Assembly (NCBI GenBank): GCA_012026785.1
Contig: VEOW01000120.1
Span: 1-49,117, forward strand
Origin: Chloroflexota bacterium
Lineage (GTDB): Bacteria > Chloroflexota > Limnocylindria > Limnocylindrales > CSP1-4
DNA length: 49,117 bases
Direction of reading: 5' to 3'
Made by a program: the position numbers and the translations under genes. Every line of letters starts with the position of its first letter. Positions within the stretch are counted from its first letter, which is position 1. The notes beneath the pieces are model-generated. The model was not told the DNA's origin and searched no databases. It saw only the letters and a list, made by a program, of their open reading frames with translations. This document shows positions 25,470 through 41,280 of this stretch, in pieces.

Positions 25470-25811
25470 CTACCGGCGGCCAAGGACGAGGTCGATGCCG
25501 TGGAGGATGAGCTCGAGCTTGGCGGGGGGCAGTCGGCCGACGACCTCGAGCCGGTCGCGATCGATCGTCACGAGCTGCGTCACGTTCGCGACCGACCGGC
25601 GGGGCAGGTGACTGTCCCGCTCGGATAGCTCGACGTTGCCGGGGCTCCTGGCCCATCTGCGGTTGCTCGTGAGGGCCACGCAGACGACCGTCTGGAGCGA
25701 CGAGCGATTGAACGGGTCGGCCTGGACGACGACGATCGGCCTCCGGAACCCCGGGCCGGAGCCGGCCGGATCGGGCAGCTCGGCCCAACAGACGTCGCCC
25801 TGCGCGATCAC
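25470..25811 (-). CDS. Type II toxin, PemK/MazF family
   Basis: GDVCWAELPDPAGSGPGFRRPIVVVQADPFN ... NVELSERDSHLPRRSVANVTQLVTIDRDRL. Confidence 0.9.
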   Translation of the reverse strand: MIAQGDVCWAELPDPAGSGPGFRRPIVVVQADPFNRSSLQTVVCVALTSNRRWARSPGNVELSERDSHLPRRSVANVTQLVTIDRDRLEVVGRLPPAKLELILHGIDLVLGRR

Positions 25812-26050
25812 AAGTCCGTTGATTCGAGAGTGGCCCGCGCGGTCGCCTCGAGGAAGGAATCGCGGCGGTCCCGCGGTCCAAGCGACCGGATCACTTCGTC
25901 CACCGCGTCGGTCACCTCGTCCTCCGAGTGCCGGGCGACGTATTCCCGGAGTGCGGCGGTGTAGACATCGCTGCGCGTGCGGCCCTGCCGACGGGCGAGG
26001 CGCTCAGCCTTGTCGAACACGTCATCGGGAACCGAGATCGCGGTCTTCAT
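25808..26050 (-). CDS. Ribbon-helix-helix antitoxin for the MazF-like toxin
   Basis: MKTAISVPDDVFDKAERLARRQGRTRSDVYTAALREYV; overlaps toxin start by 4 bp; TATACT 6 nt before ATG. Confidence 0.88.
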   Translation of the reverse strand: MKTAISVPDDVFDKAERLARRQGRTRSDVYTAALREYVARHSEDEVTDAVDEVIRSLGPRDRRDSFLEATARATLESTDL

Positions 26051-26197
26051 ACCGCGAGTATAACCGGCCCCGTCGCCCGGAGCGGGCACCTCATTGTCCT
26101 CGAGCGATCATCGCAGAGTCGCTCCAGCTTCGCCCGCCAGCCTCCCGAGCAGGCAGTGCATTGACTAAGTCGGACTAAGGCGATAGGATCGCCGGCG

Positions 26198-26437
26198 ATG
26201 GAGAGGCCAGTCAACATTCACGAGGCCAAGACCCACCTGTCGCGTCTCGTCGAGCGCGTCGAGGCGGGGGAGGAGATCACCCTCGCGCGGGCCGGCCGGC
26301 CGGTCGCCCGGCTCATCCCGTACCGCCCGCGTCGCGAGCCACGCAAGCTCGGAATGTGGAAAGGAAAGGTCTGGCTGGCCGACGACTGGGACTCGGCGGC
26401 CACGAACGCCGAGATCGGGAGGCTCTTTGACTCGTGA
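26198..26437 (+). CDS. Type II antitoxin, Phd/YefM family
   Basis: MERPVNIHEAKTHLSRLVERVEAGEEITLARAGRPVARLIPY. Confidence 0.93.
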   Translation: MERPVNIHEAKTHLSRLVERVEAGEEITLARAGRPVARLIPYRPRREPRKLGMWKGKVWLADDWDSAATNAEIGRLFDS

Positions 26438-26811
26438 TCGCGCTGTTGGACGCGCACGCGCTCATCTGGGCCTTGACGGACGACCGTCGCCTGGCCAAGG
26501 ACGCCCGGGCGGCCATCAAGGACCGCGCCATTGACGTTCTCGTCTCGGCGGCCACGGCCTGGGAGCTGTCGATCAAGCAGGCCAGCGGCAAGCTGAAGCT
26601 CGATGGGTCCCTGCTCGAGGACGTCGAGGCAGCCGGCTTCTCGTGGCTCCCGATCACGCCTGGCGACGCGGTCTCGGCCGCGGCCCTCCCGCCACATCAC
26701 CGCGATCCGTTCGATCGAATGCTCGTCGCCCAGGCCAAGCGCCTGGACGCGATCCTCATCACGCGCGATCGAGATCTGGCGGCCTACGGGGTCGAGCTCC
26801 TGCTCGCCTGA
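26434..26811 (+). CDS. PIN-domain toxin (VapC-like)
   Basis: IALLDAHALIWALTDDRRL ... WELSIKQASGKL ... HHRDPFDRMLVAQAKRLDAILITRD. Confidence 0.93.
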   Translation: MIALLDAHALIWALTDDRRLAKDARAAIKDRAIDVLVSAATAWELSIKQASGKLKLDGSLLEDVEAAGFSWLPITPGDAVSAAALPPHHRDPFDRMLVAQAKRLDAILITRDRDLAAYGVELLLA

Positions 26812-26909
26812 GTCGGCGACAGGGGAGTCGCCAAGAACCGATCGGTCTCGAGGTCCGCGTCGCCGTCGTAGTTCGGCCGCTCCTCGGACCAATGTTGTAG
26901 TATGCAACA

Positions 26910-27161
26910 ATGATCACCGTTCCTGAGGCTGCCCGTCGCGCCCGACGCAACCCCGAGACGATTCGTCGCTGGATCCGGGAGGGGAAGTTGCGCTCCACCA
27001 AGGTCGGCACCCAGCACACGATCGAGGAGCGCGACCTCGAGGCCATCCTCGATGCCGACGACGAGATGCTGCCGCTGCCGCCGGAGTGGCGGACGACCTC
27101 GTGGGGTGCCCCGATGCCGAACGTCGTCAGGCTGGTGCGCCGCTCGAGAGAGGCGCACTGA
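26910..27161 (+). CDS. MerR/excisionase-type HTH antitoxin
   Basis: MITVPEAARRARRNPETIRRWIREGKLRSTKVGTQHTIEERDLE; IR TGTTG-N7-CAACA overlaps the -10. Confidence 0.85.
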   Translation: MITVPEAARRARRNPETIRRWIREGKLRSTKVGTQHTIEERDLEAILDADDEMLPLPPEWRTTSWGAPMPNVVRLVRRSREAH

Positions 27162-27164
27162 AGC

Positions 27165-27602
27165 GTGCGCCTCGTCGTGGATGCGAGCGTGATCGTCGCG
27201 ATCTGCTACGCGGGCGGCGAACTCGGCCGTCTCCGAGGTCACGAGCTGCATGCCCCCGCACTCCTGCCGGCGGAAGTGACCTCGTCGATCCGCGAAGCGG
27301 TCTATCGGGGCGAAGTCCCACTGGCCCAGGCCGCCGGCGCCCTCGAGCGCCTGGCCGGCCTGTTGCTGACATACGACACCCCGGGAGCGCACGCCCTCGA
27401 TGCGTTCACGCTCGCCGAGCAGCTGGGCTGGGCCAAGACGTATGACGCGGAGTACGTCGTCCTCGCGCGAGCCCTGGACGCCCCGCTCGTGACGCTCGAC
27501 GGGCGTCTGCAGCGCGGTGCCGCGGGCGTGGCCCGAGTCATCGGGCCCGCCGCCACCGAAGCCGAGCCCCCGGTTGCCGCTGTCCTCGAGCGGCGTCGAT
27601 GA
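27165..27602 (+). CDS. PIN-domain toxin (VapC family)
   Basis: RLVVDASVIVAI ... LPAEVTSSIREAV ... YDAEYVVLARALDAPLVTLDGRL. Confidence 0.9.
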   Translation: MRLVVDASVIVAICYAGGELGRLRGHELHAPALLPAEVTSSIREAVYRGEVPLAQAAGALERLAGLLLTYDTPGAHALDAFTLAEQLGWAKTYDAEYVVLARALDAPLVTLDGRLQRGAAGVARVIGPAATEAEPPVAAVLERRR

Positions 27603-27775
27603 TCTCGCGTCGCGGACGGACGAGCTGTTGGAGGGTTACGGCGAGCGCTGATCGTCCTCGATCTCGGCTGCCGCGCCGAGCGCCTCGTCCTTGCGGCTGC
27701 CGCCAGCCGACGCTTGCCGAGCTGCGCACGTGATATGCTGTGGTGCACGATGACAACAGTGGGGGCACGGCGACG

Positions 27776-28036
27776 ATGAGCAGGACCAACCTGACCATAC
27801 AGCTCGAGAGCGACGTGATCCGTCGCGCCAAGGTCGTGGCCGCCAAACGCGGAACTTCGGTGAGCGCGCTCGTCGCGCAGGAACTCACCGAGCTCGCGGA
27901 CGAGGACGAGCGCTACGAGGATGCCCGGCGGAGGGCAATGCAGCTGATGGAGCACGCGACGCCCCACGGTGGCCGGACGTGGAGCCGTGACGAGCTGTAT
28001 GCCGAGCGCCTGGATCGGCATGGCAGCCGGCGATAG
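27776..28036 (+). CDS. Ribbon-helix-helix antitoxin (VapB-like)
   Basis: MSRTNLTIQLESDVIRRAKVVAAKRGTSVSALVAQELTEL. Confidence 0.82.
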   Translation: MSRTNLTIQLESDVIRRAKVVAAKRGTSVSALVAQELTELADEDERYEDARRRAMQLMEHATPHGGRTWSRDELYAERLDRHGSRR

Positions 28037-28535
28037 GACCTTCATCGACACCAACATCCTGCTGTACGCGCACGATGCGTCAGCGGCAGCCAAGCAGCCC
28101 GTTGCCCGTGCGGTCCTGGATCGCCTCTGGGCCGAGCGCGCCGGGACGCTCAGCACCCAGGTCCTCCAGGAGTTCTACTACGTGGCCACCCGAAAGCTGA
28201 GTCCGCCGGTCAGCCGAACAGAGGCGCGCCAGGTGATCGACACGTACTCGGCGTGGCCGACCGTGATACTGGATCCGGCGCTCATCCTGGCGGCCACACG
28301 CCTTGAGGAAGAGGAGCAGCTATCGTTCTGGGACGCCCTCATCGTCGAGGCGGCCCGGCTGTCAGGCGCGACGCGCCTACTGACCGAGGACATGCAGCAC
28401 GGGCGGGTCCTCGGTGGGGTTCAGATCGTGAACCCGTTCGCGCCCGAACCGCAGGCCGAGTCCGGCGCTGCTGCAGCTGGCGACGCCGGACGAGGCTCAG
28501 GACCCCGGGCGCGTTGTGCGCCCGAGGACGCATGA
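28020..28535 (+). CDS. PIN-domain toxin (VapC family)
   Basis: FIDTNILLYAHD ... LSTQVLQEFYYVATRK ... LSFWDALIVEAARLSGATRLLTEDMQHG. Confidence 0.92.
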   Translation: MAAGDRTFIDTNILLYAHDASAAAKQPVARAVLDRLWAERAGTLSTQVLQEFYYVATRKLSPPVSRTEARQVIDTYSAWPTVILDPALILAATRLEEEEQLSFWDALIVEAARLSGATRLLTEDMQHGRVLGGVQIVNPFAPEPQAESGAAAAGDAGRGSGPRARCAPEDA

Positions 28536-28590: not shown

Positions 28591-29691
28591 TTATGTCCGC
28601 GCTGCGCGCAGTCGGTACGTTGCCGCTTCGATTCGAATGAACAGGCGCTTGAGCCAACCCGGAACTCTCCTCAAGAGGTCGACATTGCTTCGTAGCCGTT
28701 CGATGAGGGCGAGGACGGTAACTGCGAGGCCGATTGACAGCGTGGGAAGTACGAATGTAGGAAGTGATAAGCCGCTTCCGACGGCCGCGACGACGATGCC
28801 TGCCGTGACCAACGATGTCGCGATAGGCGCGAACCAACCGGGCCATCGCGGCTCAAGCCCGAATGCCAGAAATCCACGGAATGGCCTGGTTCCGTCGGGA
28901 GCGATTGCTTCGTCACGCCAGTGGTATATGAGCATCTTATCCGTTCGGCGAAGGTCAACGGCCCGGTCGAGGTAGGGCTCCCAGGTTGCACCCTCGAAGA
29001 GCCGTACGTAGCGAAGTGGTGGACTCGCTTGCGTATTCTCTAGCCACGACGGCAGGATTACCAAGGCGTTCAGCTTCGATATGGAGGCCGTACGCCGTTC
29101 GAGGTCTCGGAAAAGGGCGTCCTGTCCTGTGTAGCCGATTGCATCACGCGGTTCATTCACTCGCAGATCGATTAGTGCTGAGCGCCTTGAGCGTCCCCAG
29201 ACCCAAGTCCGGTCTCCCCGGCCGGGCCGAAAACGAATTCGGACGTACCCGGTCGTATTAGCCTGCAGCCGACTAGAAAGCCGGCACGTCCAGAGGGACA
29301 TCCGTGCTCGAGATAGCTCCTTGGCATCGGCTGCTTCCTTCTCGAATGCCTTGACGGCCGCAACAGGAAGCGTGGACCCATCGGCTAAGCGTAGCGTCGT
29401 TCCAACAGCGGTCACGGGCTCACCAAAGATCAACGAGCCGACGCGTTCGTTGGTAATTCGGGCGCTGATGTCCTCTGCGCTCGGCACGGCCGCGACGTCG
29501 CTCGTTTCCACATCGAATGGCAGAAGGACTTGGAACTTCGATATGGGGTGCGACTGTGCGACGAATTTGATGCCGACATCGAAATACAGTACGCGACGCA
29601 TGAACCCGCTCAGCGACCACAGATTCAGATGGCAGTTCTCAACAATGAAGTCGTCATCCTCGTCGCCATGGAGAACAGCAAATGAGCCCAT
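28591..29691 (-). CDS. Hypothetical protein with two C-terminal TM helices
   Basis: MGSFAVLHGDEDDDFIVENC start 4 bp after the upstream stop; hydrophobic segments APIATSLVTAGIVVAAVG and FVLPTLSIGLAVTVLALI. Confidence 0.7.
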   Translation of the reverse strand: MGSFAVLHGDEDDDFIVENCHLNLWSLSGFMRRVLYFDVGIKFVAQSHPISKFQVLLPFDVETSDVAAVPSAEDISARITNERVGSLIFGEPVTAVGTTLRLADGSTLPVAAVKAFEKEAADAKELSRARMSLWTCRLSSRLQANTTGYVRIRFRPGRGDRTWVWGRSRRSALIDLRVNEPRDAIGYTGQDALFRDLERRTASISKLNALVILPSWLENTQASPPLRYVRLFEGATWEPYLDRAVDLRRTDKMLIYHWRDEAIAPDGTRPFRGFLAFGLEPRWPGWFAPIATSLVTAGIVVAAVGSGLSLPTFVLPTLSIGLAVTVLALIERLRSNVDLLRRVPGWLKRLFIRIEAATYRLRAART

Positions 29692-29695
29692 AAAT

Positions 29696-30085
29696 TCAAC
29701 CCGCGTCGTACACGCGTGCATACGACACAGGTGGCCTCGCTAGCCCGTATGCTTGCACGGACTCAGCGTGCTGCCACCGGATCGGATTCATGGCCTCAAT
29801 CGCACTGGCTGTCGAAGCGCCCTCGAGGTAAGCCGCTTCCAAGTGATCAAGCGGCACACCTGCAATAACGTCTATCACTGCAGCCGCGGCGACACGCACC
29901 TCGCCGACCTTGAACTCCCCAGTAACAGCCGAGACTGGCGCGCTCTCATAGACCAAGACACGGTCGCCCGTGGCGAGGTTGACTCGACGCCGTCGATACT
30001 CATAGCGCTTGTCCCCGGCGTACAGGGCCCTCGCGAACCCTGGGTGTATCGAAAGTAGCCATGTCCGCTTGATCTCGCCACTCAT
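29696..30085 (-). CDS. ASCH/PUA-like domain protein
   Basis: WLLSIHPGFARALYAGDKRYEYRRRRVNLATGDRVLVYESAPVSAVTGEFKVGEV. Confidence 0.78.
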   Translation of the reverse strand: MSGEIKRTWLLSIHPGFARALYAGDKRYEYRRRRVNLATGDRVLVYESAPVSAVTGEFKVGEVRVAAAAVIDVIAGVPLDHLEAAYLEGASTASAIEAMNPIRWQHAESVQAYGLARPPVSYARVYDAG

Positions 30086-30548
30086 AGACGTCCTCGTGCT
30101 CTCCCATCCCATATTTGTGGATTGCCGTGCCGATATGCTTGAAGCCGTAGCTAGTCGCCAGGCTGACGATGCCGCCCTTACGTCCGCGCCGGTGTGTCAT
30201 GTAGCCCTGAGCCACTCCCCTGCTTCGCCAGTCACGGATGATCCAAGTGAGGAGTGCGGTCCCAATCCCTCGATTCCTGTACTCGGGTGAGACGTAGAGA
30301 GTTGCGAGCTTCTCACGGTCCGCTTTCGGCTTGTAAATGGCCGCTCCAACGATGTGTCCCTCTGCATCGACTGCGACAACAGTGCGCGCCTTGGGTTGGT
30401 CGCCCACGCCGAGTGTGCGCTTCAACCAAGCGTCGAATCCTGGGTACAGCACCGCGAAACCCTCAAGCAGTGCACTCGTCCCAGCCCAATCCGCTGGCTG
30501 CCACGAACGCAGCACTACGGGCATGCCGGTAGCGTCAGAAACGATCAT
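30000..30548 (-). CDS. GNAT family N-acetyltransferase
   Basis: KLATLYVSPEYRNRGIGTALLTWIIRDWRSRG. Confidence 0.88.
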   Translation of the reverse strand: MIVSDATGMPVVLRSWQPADWAGTSALLEGFAVLYPGFDAWLKRTLGVGDQPKARTVVAVDAEGHIVGAAIYKPKADREKLATLYVSPEYRNRGIGTALLTWIIRDWRSRGVAQGYMTHRRGRKGGIVSLATSYGFKHIGTAIHKYGMGEHEDVYEWRDQADMATFDTPRVREGPVRRGQAL

Positions 30549-32662
30549 TGGATTCGTCCTCGGCCACGTAAGTAGAGATCGGTGAACGTCGCGTCCGAGA
30601 TCTCACGGGGAGCTTGTGGCGCCCGCTTTACGATGCGCCGAACCAGAGTCGCCGGTACCGTCGAGGCGAATACCTCGGTTCCAACGAACCTGAGAGCCTG
30701 CGCCAGCCCAGCGCGCGCGGTTCCCGCGACCTGCTCCAGTCTCCACACACCTAGGTGACGATATCGATCGAAGAGCTCCTCGGGCGTTCCGACATGGATT
30801 TCCTCCAGCTGTGAGGCTGCGACAATACCCGGAGCCTCGATGGCCGCGGGACCAGTTCCGCTCATATACCAAAGAATTCGGGCAGGAGCGACGAGACGGA
30901 TGCCCACTGGGCTCCGATAGTAGACATGTTCGCGACTCAGGCCTAACCCTTCAGGCCTTCGGAACAACCCCGCCGGTCGTCCAAGCAACTCCACCGAGAA
31001 TTCCTGTCGAATGGGGATTAGGTAGTTCTTGATGCCTGTGCCAACCACCTTGGCCGGCCACCAATAGCGCTCCCATTCGGCGGCAGCCATGATCGTGAGC
31101 GTTGCGACCTGCGATGGTGCCACTGCGCGGCATTGTCGGGACGCCTCGACCGCCGCTGCCCCGATAGTCAAAGGCTGGCCGACCGCATCAATGACGAGAC
31201 CTACCAGGTGCGTCCCGTCGCGCGAATACCCATCCTCAAAGGCAGCTGATTGAATGTGGCGCGATGGGTATTGGTCCTCAATCCGAATGCATGCCGCGCC
31301 CGTGGCCAGCGCCGCTAGGCGCAGGGTCCTCATCAATTGGCGCGCCAGCGTCGGTGCAAGGGCAGTCTCGGCGACCCGGGCGAGGCCAACAAGCAAGCAA
31401 CCGCCTTCGGGCTTGTGGACGAGGCACGCCTGAATCGCACCGGCCGCGTCTCGTATAGCCACCCGATCGTATCCTTCGACAGTAAGGCGTCGGACCGATG
31501 AGAGGAACTGCGAGCGTCGTTCGCCCAAGCGGCCGTCGAAGAGGTCGCCGAGAATGTCTGCCTCGCCGCCGGCGAGCAGGTGCAACTCAAACGCGGTCGC
31601 CTCCAGCGAGGCCGGGCGATATGCCTCTATCCGCTCGAGTTCATCGAGTCGAACCAAGGTTTCCGCGGGCCTTAGGATCCTGAGCTGATGCTTCAAGGCG
31701 GCGTCCGCAAGGCAGTCGATAACTTCCTGATCCCGCGTTATGAAGACTTGAAGTCCAGCAGCGATGGCCTCGGCGACATAGCGAATGTCATGCTGTCCTC
31801 GCGGAGAGACAGCGAACGCGGGGTTTCTCTCAACTGCGATCTCTGAGAGTTCGGCGACCAGGATGGCAACGAGTTCGCGGTTGGGTCTGTACTCCGGCAG
31901 TCCGAGTGCGAAGAGGTTGGCGTCCCTGCGAATGTGGTCGGGTGTTCTGTCGATCTCGATATCCAGCTCTGGGGTGCGGACCAGATCGAGTTGATCGACC
32001 AGGTCGTCGTTAAGGAGCGCCTTAGATTCGGCTGCGTCTCGCCGATTGGCCTCTACTAGGTCTCGAATGATGTTCATGTCGACCGATGCACGCACCTCGA
32101 CAGGGCCCCGTCCTGAAAACAACGTTGGTTGACCATGGTCCCGCCACCAACTAACGAGAGTCGTGGCCTGTTGCCCTCGGCCACCCCGCTCTCCGCGCCG
32201 CTCGAATCCAAGGCTTGACCACATCCGTCCAAGTCCGTAGTCCAGTCGACACCACACACCAATACCTGCGCTAGTGGCGTGTAGTCTGGACAGATGCTCG
32301 ATCAGGAGCCGGGCGATCCCGCGATTACGAACGGATGGCGCCGTGACAAGTTGTGTCAACCTGATCGCATTCCCGCTAGATCGAAACAGCGCAAAGCCGC
32401 TCACCTGGCCATCTCGGTCACGTGCAAGCAACAGCCAACGGCGACGCGCGGCTTCGAAGTAGACGGCCCGGGGAAGGAGACCAACGGTGGCACGTGCAAG
32501 GTCACCAAGCGCCACAGCTTGATCGATCGCCGCTCGGTCCCCTGGATCCGCCACCACCAACTCGATGCCGAGATCATTCGGTGCACCCCTCGACTCAGGT
32601 ACGTCGCCAGTCGCGACGTTCGTGTCCCTTGTCGGTGCGAGTCGTGACGGGTTGGTTGTCAT
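30545..32662 (-). CDS. Multidomain GNAT - PIN - ASCH/PUA-like protein (705 aa)
   Basis: LTQLVTAPSVRNRGIARLLIEHLSRL (GNAT); VDMNIIRDLVE and GQHDIRYVAEAIAAGLQVFITRDQEVID (PIN); RLVAPARILWYMSGTGPAAIEAPGIVAAS (ASCH/EVE-like). Confidence 0.78.
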   Translation of the reverse strand: MTTNPSRLAPTRDTNVATGDVPESRGAPNDLGIELVVADPGDRAAIDQAVALGDLARATVGLLPRAVYFEAARRRWLLLARDRDGQVSGFALFRSSGNAIRLTQLVTAPSVRNRGIARLLIEHLSRLHATSAGIGVWCRLDYGLGRMWSSLGFERRGERGGRGQQATTLVSWWRDHGQPTLFSGRGPVEVRASVDMNIIRDLVEANRRDAAESKALLNDDLVDQLDLVRTPELDIEIDRTPDHIRRDANLFALGLPEYRPNRELVAILVAELSEIAVERNPAFAVSPRGQHDIRYVAEAIAAGLQVFITRDQEVIDCLADAALKHQLRILRPAETLVRLDELERIEAYRPASLEATAFELHLLAGGEADILGDLFDGRLGERRSQFLSSVRRLTVEGYDRVAIRDAAGAIQACLVHKPEGGCLLVGLARVAETALAPTLARQLMRTLRLAALATGAACIRIEDQYPSRHIQSAAFEDGYSRDGTHLVGLVIDAVGQPLTIGAAAVEASRQCRAVAPSQVATLTIMAAAEWERYWWPAKVVGTGIKNYLIPIRQEFSVELLGRPAGLFRRPEGLGLSREHVYYRSPVGIRLVAPARILWYMSGTGPAAIEAPGIVAASQLEEIHVGTPEELFDRYRHLGVWRLEQVAGTARAGLAQALRFVGTEVFASTVPATLVRRIVKRAPQAPREISDATFTDLYLRGRGRIQ

Positions 32663-32786
32663 TTCGATTCAGCGCAGATGGGCGCGCTGTCCCAGTCTTC
32701 ACCCGTAGGATCCAGCCCAGCGCGATGCTGCCAACCGCAACTGGATGCGCCGCCGGCGTGGGGCGTCTCCGTGCGCCGCCGCGCCC

Positions 32787-33380
32787 TCACGGCGCGATCA
32801 CCTTGAGCACCTCGTCGCCATAGTGGTTGATCACCTTGATGGTGATCCTGCCCGAGCGGGGGCGCGGGAAGGGGCGGGAGACGGTCGAGTTGATGGTCGC
32901 CCAAGCGTCGTCGGAGATGTCGGCGCGCAGGGGCGCGGCGGAGCTTGTCGTAGGGGTCATCGGAGCCGGTGAAGTAGGCGTGGCGGACGAAGAAGGCGTC
33001 GCCGTCGTAGTCGGTGTCGAGGAACCAGGCGGCGATGTCGTCGGTCGAGGAGGAGCGGACCTGGCCCGTGGTCGGGTCGTAGACGTCGAGGCCGCGGATC
33101 TCGACCTGGAGGTGCGGATCGGAGGCCGAGCCATTCGAGGGGACCTCTCGGACCTCGATGTCGGGCTCGCCGAAGACCATGAACAGGTTGCCGGTGCCGG
33201 TCTTCTTGAGCAGCTCGTCGCCCATCGCCAGGTCGGGGTTCATCCGGGCACGCACGATCGTCAGGCGCCCGAGGCTCGAGGCCTCCTCCACCACCAGGGG
33301 GTCGAACGCGAAGCCGCACACGACGAGCAGGTCGGCGATCTTGACGGCCTCCTTGGCGGCGTCGCGGACGAGCTCGGTCA
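32787..33380 (-). pseudogene. Truncated and frameshifted duplicate of type III DNA methyltransferase C-terminus
   Basis: TELVRDAAKEAVKIADLLVVCGFAFDPLV ... nearly identical to the C-terminus of the CDS at 36555; frame switches near 32940. Confidence 0.9.
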
Positions 33381-33587
33381 ACTCGGCAGGTCCAGGTTCT
33401 TGGCCGGCTTGCGCTCGAGTCGGGCGACGAGCATGTCGGGTCGACCAGCCTGACGAACGACTTCAAGACGCAGGTTCATCTCGGACCTGCCGCCATATCG
33501 GGCGACGACGCGCTGATAATCCGCTTCCGTGAACTCGACACGACCGCCGGCGCGGTCGAGCAGGATCGTGAGCGTGCTGTAGGCCAT
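33378..33587 (-). CDS. Small hypothetical protein (69 aa)
   Basis: MAYSTLTILLDRAGGRVEFTEADYQRVVARYGGRSEMNLRLEVVRQAGRPDMLVARLE; adjacent to XRE gene. Confidence 0.5.
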   Translation of the reverse strand: MAYSTLTILLDRAGGRVEFTEADYQRVVARYGGRSEMNLRLEVVRQAGRPDMLVARLERKPAKNLDLPS

Positions 33588-33888: not shown

Positions 33889-34173
33889 TCAGTCGCTGAC
33901 GAGCTCGAGCCTGACCCGACGATGCGACACGGCGGCGGCGTAGCGGTCGAGCGTCGAGTACCGGATGTCGCCCTTGGCCGACTCGATCTCCGCGACGACT
34001 GACTGGCCGACGCGCATGGCCTTGGCGACGGCGGCCTGCGTCAGCCCGTTGGCCTTCCGCTCCGCCACCAGCCGCTGGATGAGCCGCTGGCGCCGAATTT
34101 CGGCCTCCAGGAGTTCGGCGTATTCGGGGTTGGCTTCGATCCGGTGCTGGATCGACAGATCCAGGTCGTCCAT
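33889..34173 (-). CDS. XRE-family HTH protein, HigA-like orphan antitoxin
   Basis: RLVAERKANGLTQAAVAKAMRVGQSVVAEIESAKGDIRYSTLDRYAAAV. Confidence 0.9.
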   Translation of the reverse strand: MDDLDLSIQHRIEANPEYAELLEAEIRRQRLIQRLVAERKANGLTQAAVAKAMRVGQSVVAEIESAKGDIRYSTLDRYAAAVSHRRVRLELVSD

Positions 34174-36554: not shown

Positions 36555-39197
36555 TCACCGCAGCACCATGACCTTCAGGACCTCATCGCCGTAGTGGTTG
36601 ATGACCTTGATGGCGATCTTGCCCGAGCGCGGGCGCGGGAAGGGGCGGGAGACGGTCGAGTTGACAGAGTCCCAGGCCTCGGGCGCGATGACGCCTTTGA
36701 TCGCACGCCGGAGCTTGTCGTAGGGATCCTCGGCGCCGGTGAAGTAGGCGTGGCGGACGAAGAAGGCGTCGCCGTCGTAGTCGGTGTCGAGGAACCAGGC
36801 GGCGATCGGGTTGTCGCCGCTGTCGAGCGCGGACGTCCGTAGCTCGCCGGTGGTCGGATCGTAAACGTCAAGGCCGCGGATCTCGACCTGGAGCATCGCC
36901 TCGTCGGCCGAGCCGTTCGAGGAGACCTCGCGGACATCGATGTCGGGCTCGCCGAAGACCATGAACAGGTTGCCGGTGCCGGTCTTCTTGAGCAGGTCCT
37001 CCCCCATCGCGAGGTCGGGGTTCATCCGGGCGCGCAGGATCGTCAGGCGCCCGAGGCTCGATGCCTCCTCCCCTACAAGCGGGTCGAACGCGAAGCCGCA
37101 CACAACGAGCAGGTCGGCGATCTTGACGGCCTCCTTGGCGGCGTCTCGGACCAGTTCGGGGCCGACGGTCCCAAACTCGGGGCCGATGGCGATCGCCGCC
37201 GTCCTGGCCTTGCCGCTCTCGGTGTACTCCCCTACCCCCTGGACGTAGACGCCCGGGTACGGGTCGAGCCGGCTGAATTCGAGCCGCTCGTTGCGCTTGG
37301 TGTTCTGGACGCCGGCACGGCGGAGGTTGTCGAGGATCGTCGTGACGAAGCGGCTGGCGTCGACCGACTCGACGGGCGCCGGGATCTCGGGCGACTCGTC
37401 CTCCGGCCCGGTTCGAAGGACACGGTGCGGCGACAGGCTCTCGACCGTGAACGGGCCCGACACGCGCACGACCTTGCGGTCCTCGTACGGGCGGTCGAAC
37501 AGGGTCTCGGTCTCGGCGTGGCGCGCGATGGCGGCGTCGATCTCCTCGCGCGTCATGCCCTCGCGGATGTCGGGGTTCTGGGCGATCGACTTCAGGGTCA
37601 CGTGCGGCACGCGCTCGTACACGAAGCCCCGACGGACATCGCCGGTCGTCGCCGGCATCGGGCTCGGCGGCGCCTGGCCGGTCAGCTCGGTTTCCTTGCG
37701 GACGCCGGCCTCCGAGTCGGCGAGCAGGTACCACGGGTACTTCGCGGCCATCAGCCTCGAGCGTGCGAGGGCGAGCGCGACGCGGCTCGTGTCGATCGTG
37801 ATCCAGCGCCTCCCCCACTGCTCGGCGACGTAGGCCGTCGTGCCAGAGCCGCACGTCGGGGCGAGCACAAGGTCGCCGGGATCTGTCGTCATCAGGAGAG
37901 CGCGCTCCATGATCTTGGTGTTTGTCTGGACGACATACACCTTTTCCATCGCGCTGCCTGACTGCGTGTCTTCCCAGACGTTGTTGTAGGGAAACGCGGG
38001 AAAGTCCTCGAGATAACGGATGTAGGACAGGCCGCCCCCGGTGGCGGCTACTCTTCCGGCCGCGATGAGGCGCTCCATCCCAGTTCGATTCGTCTTCCAC
38101 TCGCCCGACGTTGGCAGGTACTCCCGACCGTCGACGGCAACGGGGTAATTCCCGGTCCTGGCCTCTCGGATTCGGGGTGACGTGAGGATCTGGTAGCGGA
38201 GTACACGGCCGGCAATTGGGACGGAGCCGGACCTCTCACTCGGTGTCAGCCGCCGACGCCTCCCGTTGGGCTCTTCAACTGTGTCATACGCGTCCGACCC
38301 GGCAAGGCCGACGCCTTTCGGCCGGTAGATCGGCCGATACTTGGCCGCCCCGCGCTCTTTCGCGTACCACAGGACGTAATCAGCCGTTGGCGCAAGGAAT
38401 TCGCTGGTCGCCCCGGCTGTCTTTCTGAACGCGATCTGCGAAATGAAGTTGCTCGGGTGGAAGACCTCATCGAGGATCGAGCGGACCAGATGGACGTTCT
38501 CGTCGCCGATCTGGACGAATACCGATCCACTGGGCGTAAGGAGATCCCGTGCGACGTTGAACCTGTCGCGAAGGTAGCTCAGGTATGAATTGACGCCGAG
38601 CTCCCACGTGTCGCGGTAGGCGCGAACCTGCTCAGGCTGGCGGGTGAGATCTGTTAGCTTGCCATCCTTGACGTCGGTCCGGCGAGTCGAGACCTGCCAG
38701 TTCGAGCCGAACTTGATCCCGTACGGCGGGTCGACGTAGATCGTCTGGACCTGGCCCTTGAGGCCCTCCTTCTCGGCGAGGCTGGTCATGACCAGCAGGG
38801 AGTCGCCGAGGATCATCCGGTTCGACCATTTGCCGGCGTGGCGGTAGAAGTCGACCTTCTCGTCGAACGTCAGGTCCGTGTACGGCCCGAAGAAGCCGAG
38901 CTGCTCCTCGGTCCGGCGGCCCTCGCTCGTCGAGCGCAGGTCCTCGATCAGCGCGAGCGGGTCGATCGTCTCCTGGATGTAGATCGGGACCGCCGGCACC
39001 TCGAGGTCGCGGCCGTCCTGCTCGTCCTTGCCCTTCCAGACAAGCTGCGGGTCGAGGGTCGGGTCGCGCGGGTAGCGCAGGATGGTCGGCCTCTTCTCTT
39101 CGTCCCGGACGAACGACTCGAGCTCGGCGGTCGGGATGTTCGGGCGGCTCGCGCCATCGTGCCCGAGCGAGCGGACGGGCGTGATCTTGTCAGACAT
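36555..39197 (-). CDS. Type III restriction-modification DNA methyltransferase (Mod, beta-class N6-adenine)
   Basis: IYVDPPYGIKFGSNWQ (DPPY) followed by LAPTCGSGTTAYVAEQWGRRWITID. Confidence 0.92.
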   Translation of the reverse strand: MSDKITPVRSLGHDGASRPNIPTAELESFVRDEEKRPTILRYPRDPTLDPQLVWKGKDEQDGRDLEVPAVPIYIQETIDPLALIEDLRSTSEGRRTEEQLGFFGPYTDLTFDEKVDFYRHAGKWSNRMILGDSLLVMTSLAEKEGLKGQVQTIYVDPPYGIKFGSNWQVSTRRTDVKDGKLTDLTRQPEQVRAYRDTWELGVNSYLSYLRDRFNVARDLLTPSGSVFVQIGDENVHLVRSILDEVFHPSNFISQIAFRKTAGATSEFLAPTADYVLWYAKERGAAKYRPIYRPKGVGLAGSDAYDTVEEPNGRRRRLTPSERSGSVPIAGRVLRYQILTSPRIREARTGNYPVAVDGREYLPTSGEWKTNRTGMERLIAAGRVAATGGGLSYIRYLEDFPAFPYNNVWEDTQSGSAMEKVYVVQTNTKIMERALLMTTDPGDLVLAPTCGSGTTAYVAEQWGRRWITIDTSRVALALARSRLMAAKYPWYLLADSEAGVRKETELTGQAPPSPMPATTGDVRRGFVYERVPHVTLKSIAQNPDIREGMTREEIDAAIARHAETETLFDRPYEDRKVVRVSGPFTVESLSPHRVLRTGPEDESPEIPAPVESVDASRFVTTILDNLRRAGVQNTKRNERLEFSRLDPYPGVYVQGVGEYTESGKARTAAIAIGPEFGTVGPELVRDAAKEAVKIADLLVVCGFAFDPLVGEEASSLGRLTILRARMNPDLAMGEDLLKKTGTGNLFMVFGEPDIDVREVSSNGSADEAMLQVEIRGLDVYDPTTGELRTSALDSGDNPIAAWFLDTDYDGDAFFVRHAYFTGAEDPYDKLRRAIKGVIAPEAWDSVNSTVSRPFPRPRSGKIAIKVINHYGDEVLKVMVLR

Positions 39198-39428
39198 GAC
39201 TGATTCCGGGCTCGATGGTTGAATGTTGACCTGCGATCCGAACCAGGCGCGTAGGCAGGTCCGGCATGACAATCGGCGGCGTCGGGCGCTGTGCTGGTCG
39301 TGCGGCCCCCGATTCGCCTAGAAAGCGTCGAAGCAGGCTGATCATGCCCTTCCTCCGGCTGGCGAGTAAGCCGCAGTGAACCGCCGAACCGGACAATCCT
39401 CGCCCGCCGACCATGTCGCGAGGTCGGC

Positions 39429-39953: not shown

Positions 39954-41280
39954 TCATCGTCCAGCCACCACGGGCCCGAGGTAGCGCGACCGGATCAGGT
40001 CGGCCGCGTTCTCCATGTGGGTGACCTCGAGGAAGGCCCCGCGGCCGAGGCCGCCCCAGTTGTTGACGGCCGGGATCCAGAGATCGTTCGCCGCGGCGAC
40101 CTTGGCCTGCTTCTCCTTCTTGGCCTCGCCGGAGACCTCCAAAAGCAGCGTCAGGAGGTCGTCGTCGCCGGTCGAGTGACGGTCGCGGATTTGAATGAGG
40201 AAGTCGGGGACGTAGTTGGCGGCGCGGCCCTCGTAGCTGTACGGGATCTTCAGGTTCAGGCCCTGGTTCTTGACGTAGCTGACGACCTCGGGCATGTCCT
40301 CCAGCTTTGCGGCGAGCTCGGTCTCCCAGCCGGAGTCCTGGGCGACGCGGTTCACGTGGCTCTTGGTCGTGTCGTAGGTCGTCTTCGTCGTTTCGAAGTA
40401 GACGTCGTCGGTCGAGCCGATCGAGTCGTAGGCGCGGAGGGTCGGGACGAGGCGGCGCTCGCCCTTTGTGGCGTTCGTGATCGCGCGGTGGATCTTCTCC
40501 GCCGCGGCGTGGCTCCACTCGGCCAGGAGCAGCATCTGCGGGAAGGCGCCGTCGCCGAGGTACGGCTCGACGCACTCGTCGATCCAGCGGCGGCTGATCG
40601 TGACGAGCTGCGGGAACAGCCAGGGCTTCGCCTGGCCCTCGGGGTCGCGGAAGTAATTGTCGAGCGTCCGCTTGGCGATCGCGAAGGCGACGGTGTTGAG
40701 GCGGTGTTCACGGAGCGGCAGGTCGAGCAGCTTCATCTCGCCGACGATCGGGTCGAGCTCGGTCTTCGTCGGGACGTCGCGGGTCGAAAGCTCCAGGATC
40801 GAGCGCTCGTCGAAGGTCGCCTCGATGCGCTCCTTGGGCATCTCGAAGCGATAGCCGACGACCCGCGGGAACTCGATCCGAAGGTTCGAACGCTCGGGCA
40901 GCGATCGAACGACGAGCACCGGCTTGCGCGCCCGAACCTTGCCCTTGCCGGTCGTGGCCAGGAAGGTGAACGGGACGCCGAGGACCTCGGCGTATTCCGG
41001 TTCGAATAGCCCGTCGGGGTTGGTGTCGTAGCTCGCCCGCCGCAGGGCCCGTCCGACGACCTGCTCGCACAGCAGCTGCGTCCCGAACGCCCGAATGCCG
41101 AGGATGTGGGTGACCGTGTTGGCGTCCCAGCCCTCGGTCAGCATCGAGACCGACACCACGCAGCGAATGTCCGCGCCGAGCCGGCCGGGCTTGCCGACGG
41201 TATTCAGGACCTCGCGCAGGATGTCCTCGTCGGTGAGGTCCTCCGCGCTCCGGCCCGGGAAGCGGGCGACGTACTCGCTG
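39954..41280 (-). pseudogene. Type III restriction endonuclease (Res), 5'-truncated
   Basis: VSVSMLTEGWDANTVTHILGIRAFGTQLLCEQVVGRALRR (helicase motifs V/VI) and nuclease-like C-terminus; DEAD/Walker A half absent. Confidence 0.88.

Follow-up and report, generated by a model that had tools for sequence, protein, structure and literature searches.

What do four closely packed genes on the minus strand of a Chloroflexota contig encode, and do they act as one system? The stretch of DNA analyzed here (contig VEOW01000120.1, 49,117 nucleotides; hereafter the window) carries four minus-strand open reading frames (ORFs), which form an operon and are called genes 1 to 4 (Table 1). All four were present at the coordinates and with the spacings given in a first-pass annotation of the sequence: genes 1 and 2 overlap by 4 bp (ATGA), genes 2 and 3 overlap by 86 bp, and genes 3 and 4 are separated by 4 bp. 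Alternative starts exist for gene 3 (an upstream ATG at 30112, giving 138 amino acids (aa)) and for gene 4 (an upstream ATG, giving 376 aa). Scans for promoters and terminators gave no signal exceeding chance in the operon. By profile comparison, the operon belongs to the (PIN)-GNAT-EVE plus ASCH class, the PADLOC candidate system PDC-M11, because residues 188-700 of gene 1 match a PIN-GNAT-EVE profile and an ASCH gene adjoins. The relevant passages of Bell et al. 2020, following Iyer et al. 2013, predicted operons of (PIN)-GNAT-EVE with ASCH, often together with an AAA_17 ATPase (PMC7641849). The first-pass annotation did not recognize the core (EVE fusion and ASCH) as this published predicted class.

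Gene 1 encodes a four-domain fusion. When a profile of eight gene 1-type proteins was compared with the PIN-GNAT-EVE profile by HHalign, residues 188-700 were aligned (99.2%, E 3e-19). A second, weaker profile alignment placed the N-terminal GNAT of gene 1 onto the inner GNAT. Taken together, the two alignments give the order GNAT, PIN, GNAT-like and EVE. The first-pass annotation had proposed GNAT, PIN and an "ASCH/EVE-like" C-terminus. The GNAT was confirmed by Pfam (Acetyltransf_7, residues 79-154, E 1.7e-6), the PIN domain by the profile match, and the C-terminal region is EVE according to the 188-700 alignment. All four acidic residues of the PIN domain are kept. Single-sequence scans of gene 1 were less informative: Pfam matched the N-terminal GNAT alone and not PIN, and no PDC-M11A model of PADLOC matched at E 1. 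Several relatives of gene 1 match Pfam PIN weakly (E about 1e-3), and several match the PIN and EVE parts of PDC-M11A. These relatives are full length (about 680-710 aa, 23-41% identity). One Plantactinospora genome has two of them, and others come from Prevotella, a phage contig, Nostoc and Calothrix plasmids, and a second genome of the phylum to which the window belongs. In every relative, an ASCH gene follows the gene 1 homologue. In an AlphaFold2 (AF2) model of gene 1 built from 4 sequences, the PIN segment was modeled best, with a predicted local distance difference test score (pLDDT) of 82-91 over its second half, and the middle domain showed the strand-strand-strand-helix order of a GNAT-like fold. 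Only the PIN domain and parts of both GNATs are usable in this model. A Foldseek search with it gave GNATs as the top matches, the tandem-GNAT structure 2wpw among them. At locus L007 (positions 1423-2214; L numbers denote loci other than the window), a stand-alone protein, possibly phage-borne, is related to the front GNAT of gene 1 (E 5e-20). The extra domain of gene 1 may have come from a protein of this kind.

Table 1. Positions in the window of the operon genes, the domains of gene 1 and the Mod genes upstream.
Feature	Position	Strand	Description	Evidence
Gene 1	30545..32662	-	705 aa, GNAT-PIN-(degenerate GNAT)-EVE fusion	ORF, Pfam GNAT, profile-profile alignment, same-length relatives
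Gene 1, N-terminal GNAT domain, aa ~34-160	32183..32563	-	acetyl-CoA loop RNRGIA	Pfam, Foldseek, residue table
Gene 1, PIN domain, aa ~188-345	31628..32101	-	D195, E236, D292, D311	profile alignment, AF2 model
Gene 1, middle GNAT-like domain, aa ~358-480	31223..31591	-	acetyl-CoA loop lost	aligned with GNAT of PIN-GNAT-EVE
Gene 1, EVE domain, aa ~540-702	30557..31045	-		aligned with EVE part of PIN-GNAT-EVE
Gene 2	30000..30548	-	182 aa, stand-alone GNAT, motif RNRGIG	Pfam E 8e-11, leave-one-out profile
Gene 3	29696..30085	-	129 aa, ASCH protein, PDC-M11B type, ZmASCH-like	PADLOC, PDB profile match
Gene 4	28591..29691	-	366 aa, new family, soluble domain and C-terminal membrane helices (predicted)	11 loci
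Mod	36555..39272	-	type III restriction-modification methyltransferase, context	PADLOC MTase_III E 4.5e-274
Mod C-terminus remnant	32659..33381	-	frameshifted, abuts gene 1, context	PADLOC MTase_III E 2e-37

The first-pass annotation had also named a separate GNAT and a separate ASCH protein, and both hold (genes 2 and 3). Gene 3 matches Pfam ASCH exactly at the cut-off and PADLOC PDC-M11B with E 1.8e-17. When a profile of the gene 3 family was searched against the PDB, the closest solved structure was ZmASCH from Zymomonas mobilis (5GUQ/5GUS, E 8e-30). ZmASCH is a nucleic acid-binding protein with weak cleavage activity on single-stranded RNA and none on DNA, and Tyr47, Lys53 and Ser128 contribute to this activity (PMC5615036). 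Gene 3 shares the fold family and keeps Arg32, Tyr47, Tyr90 and Ser128 of ZmASCH, whereas Trp15, Arg50, Lys53 and Gln127 are replaced. The first-pass annotation had instead pointed to YqfB and proposed an acetylation-sensing or acetyl-editing system; in the latter, the GNATs would add acetyl groups and the ASCH protein would remove them by N4-acetylcytidine hydrolysis. YqfB is an N4-acetylcytidine amidohydrolase with a Thr-Lys-Glu triad, and replacement of its nucleophile, Thr24, by Ala inactivates the enzyme (PMC6972931). Both proteins belong to the ASCH superfamily, and Lys21 and Arg26 of YqfB correspond to Lys and Arg in gene 3. However, the position of the catalytic Thr24 is Glu29 in gene 3, and Glu in every relative examined (motif GxKxxExR). 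Moreover, HHalign gives gene 3 no significant similarity to YqfB (2%), in contrast to ZmASCH. Because the nucleophile is replaced, we rejected gene 3 as a YqfB-type deacetylase, and we consider acetyl-editing very improbable. On these alignments, gene 3 belongs among ASCH proteins with ZmASCH and not with YqfB.

Genes 2 and 4 lie outside the core. Gene 2 is a GNAT: when the window was omitted from the profile, it was still found with E 8e-13 and 44.6 bits, versus 20 bits or less for unrelated GNATs. It matches the GNAT part of PDC-M11A. Gene 4 encodes the membrane protein expected by the first-pass annotation, with two membrane helices predicted by hydropathy (residues 287-305 and 312-330). 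When gene 4 of the window was the sole query, plasmids, viral contigs and 200 genomes yielded no relatives. The only bridge to its family is a locus of the same phylum, L017, where PIN-GNAT-EVE and ASCH genes are accompanied by a gene 4 relative of 319 aa. Starting from the L017 gene, seven plasmid loci were recovered, in Rhizobium, Paenibacillus, Methylobacterium, Paracoccus, Nitrosophilus and Pseudomonas, and further scans added two viral contigs. An alignment that combined the gene 4 sequences proved too divergent to serve in a viral-contig scan. With the window omitted from the family profile, gene 4 was found with E 1e-18. A C-terminal hydrophobic helix is present in all members, and two helices in some. 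Searches with 9 members matched no family in Pfam, NCBIfam or PADLOC, a PHROGs search with gene 4 gave no match, and the family matched no PDB sequence below E 0.6. By these comparisons, gene 4 founds a new family, with a soluble domain and a predicted C-terminal membrane helix. An AF2 model of gene 4 from 3 sequences was discarded (pLDDT 39.5).

Do the four genes belong together? Profiles of six gene types were run over 33 loci. The first-pass annotation had named co-occurrence elsewhere as a check of its reading, and the same gene set recurs among these loci. The ASCH gene was present at 33 of 33 and adjoins the EVE fusion wherever both ends are in view. Gene 4 was found at 11 loci from several phyla; the ASCH gene adjoins in all 11 and the EVE fusion in 10, and at the eleventh (L073) the contig stops short of where the fusion gene would lie. 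In the scans made, gene 4 was never found apart from EVE/ASCH genes. This constancy, and the ASCH gene that follows every gene 1 relative, go beyond chance. In the phylum of the window, it was present in 2 of 399 genomes, both of which have the other genes. A gene 2-type GNAT occurs at 7 of the 11 gene 4 loci (the window, L054 from Paenibacillus cellulosilyticus, L055, L058, L059 from Pseudomonas sp. CIP-10, L073 and L076) versus 0 of the 22 EVE/ASCH loci that lack gene 4 (Fisher p 8e-5, for loci that are not fully independent and profile seeds partly from the same loci). Thus, the four genes recur together as a unit. That gene 4 lies in the same setting at 11 loci and gene 2 accompanies it preferentially speaks for genes 2 and 4 as parts of the system. 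Gene 4 was present in 6 of 22 GNAT-EVE plasmid records, and hence it is an accessory arm rather than a core part. We also considered whether the gene 2 type is exclusive to gene 4 loci. This holds in the 33-locus survey but is not absolute: a reverse search found partial gene 2 relatives lacking the other operon genes in Variovorax, beside Wadjet genes, and in Rhizobium leguminosarum (L079 5983-6357; L080 5884-6366). A Rhizobium anhuiense plasmid (L057 3279-9081) carries GNAT-EVE, ASCH and gene 4, followed in tandem by HTH-ASCH, PIN-GNAT-EVE and an AAA_17 ATPase. Of 5,426 complete E. coli genomes, 275 carry a nearly identical GNAT-EVE and ASCH pair, in every case on the chromosome; L060 5989-7417 is a pair of this E. 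coli type, and one listed copy is interrupted by IS1.

What might this unit do? The reading that we favor, tentatively and with somewhat less than even confidence, is an infection-triggered, RNA-targeting abortive defense. What follows on its ligand, target and phage trigger, and on the contributions of genes 2 and 4, is inferred. The PUA-like readers, EVE in gene 1 and ASCH in gene 3, would bind nucleic acid, most likely RNA, that carries a particular modification or has been altered by infection. This binding would bring the fused acetyltransferase and PIN nuclease onto the target nucleic acid. RNA, probably tRNA, would then be acetylated, cut or both, and translation and phage growth would stop. 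Genes 4 and 2 may form a membrane-bound accessory arm, which anchors or releases the complex or serves as a second effector, and gene 2 may be the modifying enzyme of gene 4. RNA is suggested as the target because the PIN acidic residues are complete and because ZmASCH, a nucleic acid-binding protein and the solved structure closest to gene 3, cuts single-stranded RNA. Several observations weigh against this proposal. The AF2 model of gene 1 is poor overall (pLDDT 55): it backs the PIN segment of the first-pass annotation but does not resolve the EVE part. In two cyanobacterial relatives (L013 and L014), three of the four PIN acidic residues are lost although the proteins are still full length, so cutting is not always needed. 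The nuclease activity of ZmASCH is weak and its metal site is not clear (PMC5615036), and the position of its Lys53 is Ser in gene 3 and variable in other relatives. The AAA_17 ATPase, present in many relatives, was not found in the 49-kb window by a family profile search. Finally, the operon passages of the 2020 description report no experiments and state that no module has been characterized (PMC7641849). Since gene 2 pairs preferentially with gene 4, a membrane-linked immunity was also considered, in which EVE and ASCH would sense modified nucleic acid, the GNATs would acetylate gene 4, gene 4 would break the membrane or shut down the cell, and PIN would be a second effector. This seems quite unlikely.

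The neighborhood of the operon agrees with the accessory defense context described in the first-pass annotation, which placed it between toxin-antitoxin modules and restriction-modification (R-M) remnants. Going upstream from gene 1, the Mod remnant is followed by a helix-turn-helix (HTH) gene (33889-34173), a fragment of an IS110-type transposase and then the Mod gene itself. The remnant and the end of the Mod gene share 86% DNA identity over 593 bp, and thus the Mod end is present twice. The Res gene (39954-41159) seems to lack its start. Neighbors of the relatives include an Eco29kI R-M pair, McrBC-like genes, SIR2/AAA genes and phage genes, and L017 has a type III Mod-like gene nearby. Relatives were found on plasmids and phage contigs. 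The PDC-M11A/B matches, the adjoining Mod gene, Mod remnant and truncated Res gene, and the R-M, SIR2 and AAA neighbors of relatives place the operon in a defense-type, accessory and mobile setting. Frequent R-M genes, Mod in the window included, could also speak for DNA marking, which, according to PMC7641849, Iyer et al. had proposed earlier (2013). Here, the GNATs would place an acetyl or other acyl group on a DNA base, and EVE/ASCH would read this mark, either to spare host DNA or to recognize modified phage DNA. HTH-ASCH fusions in relatives (L056 and L057) suggest DNA binding. However, ZmASCH cut single-stranded RNA and not DNA, PIN is an RNase fold in most characterized members, and the membrane protein is left unexplained. 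We consider DNA marking unlikely.

Returning to RNA as the target, the same folds could serve a toxin-antitoxin unit for addiction or stress, in which gene 1, gene 2 or both are toxins, with the GNAT acting on charged tRNA and PIN on RNA, silenced by the ASCH protein. GNAT and PIN are common toxin folds. The frames overlap, the core has two genes, and about four modules, in which PemK/MazF-type or PIN (VapC-type) toxin genes are paired with probable antitoxins, lie within 3 kb downstream (25470-28535). This idea was put forward in the operon passages of PMC7641849. Gene 2 resembles TacT/AtaT-type toxins in its GNAT fold and acetyl-CoA loop. In contrast to these toxins, the operon is multi-gene and has no adjoining ribbon-helix-helix or HTH antitoxin. 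Among its ORFs there is no DNA-binding antitoxin gene, and the nearest HTH gene, the one mentioned above, lies 1.2 kb upstream of gene 1. Moreover, the core is far bigger than typical toxin-antitoxin pairs, and gene 4 and the ATPase are not components of such pairs. We consider a toxin-antitoxin role about as unlikely as DNA marking.

The composition of the operon bears on its origin. The GC content of the four genes is 59-61% versus 69% for the window, and GC at third codon positions is about 0.64-0.67 versus about 0.9 in most surrounding host genes, the dip having the extent of the operon. Because the low values fall on the operon, it was probably acquired horizontally. It could then be a relic, functionless in its present host. 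The frameshifted Mod copy in front and the truncated Res gene fit this, as does a related copy full of frameshifts (L004). The L004 record, a metagenome-assembled genome titled Acidimicrobiia, is 98.8% identical to the window over 18 kb, and its label or binning is doubtful. However, we rejected its frameshifts as operon decay: 98 gaps are spread through the whole 18-kb alignment and look like assembly errors. The four frames in the window are open, and the PIN and GNAT motifs are intact. A relic is improbable, and an RNA-targeting abortive defense remains the reading that we prefer.

The class is widespread, for example as the E. coli pair, yet according to the passages of the 2020 description no module had been tested (PMC7641849). 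Two extra recurring components, one of them a membrane protein of an unrecognized family, define a fuller unit that can be tested as one system. Genes 2 and 4 may explain why tests of the two-gene core could fail, and gene 4 can serve as a marker for variants that current defense-finding models miss. Compared with PADLOC PDC-M11 (A, PIN-GNAT-EVE; B, ASCH), genes 2 and 3 have counterparts, whereas gene 1 is matched by no PDC-M11A model and gene 4 is covered by no PADLOC model. Because gene 1 escapes PDC-M11A, current tools would miss the variant in the window. Like the (PIN)-GNAT-EVE plus ASCH operons in the passages of PMC7641849, the operon has EVE behind GNAT and PIN, ASCH directly downstream, and a mobile, defense-linked setting. 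It differs from them in its extra front GNAT, degenerate inner GNAT, separate GNAT gene, membrane gene 4 and lack of an AAA_17 ATPase. The main-text passages on operons in PMC7641849 make no mention of a stand-alone GNAT partner, a membrane component or a GNAT-PIN-GNAT-EVE layout. Thus, relative to those passages, the core of EVE fusion and ASCH was already published as a predicted class, and the front GNAT fusion, gene 2 and gene 4 are new.

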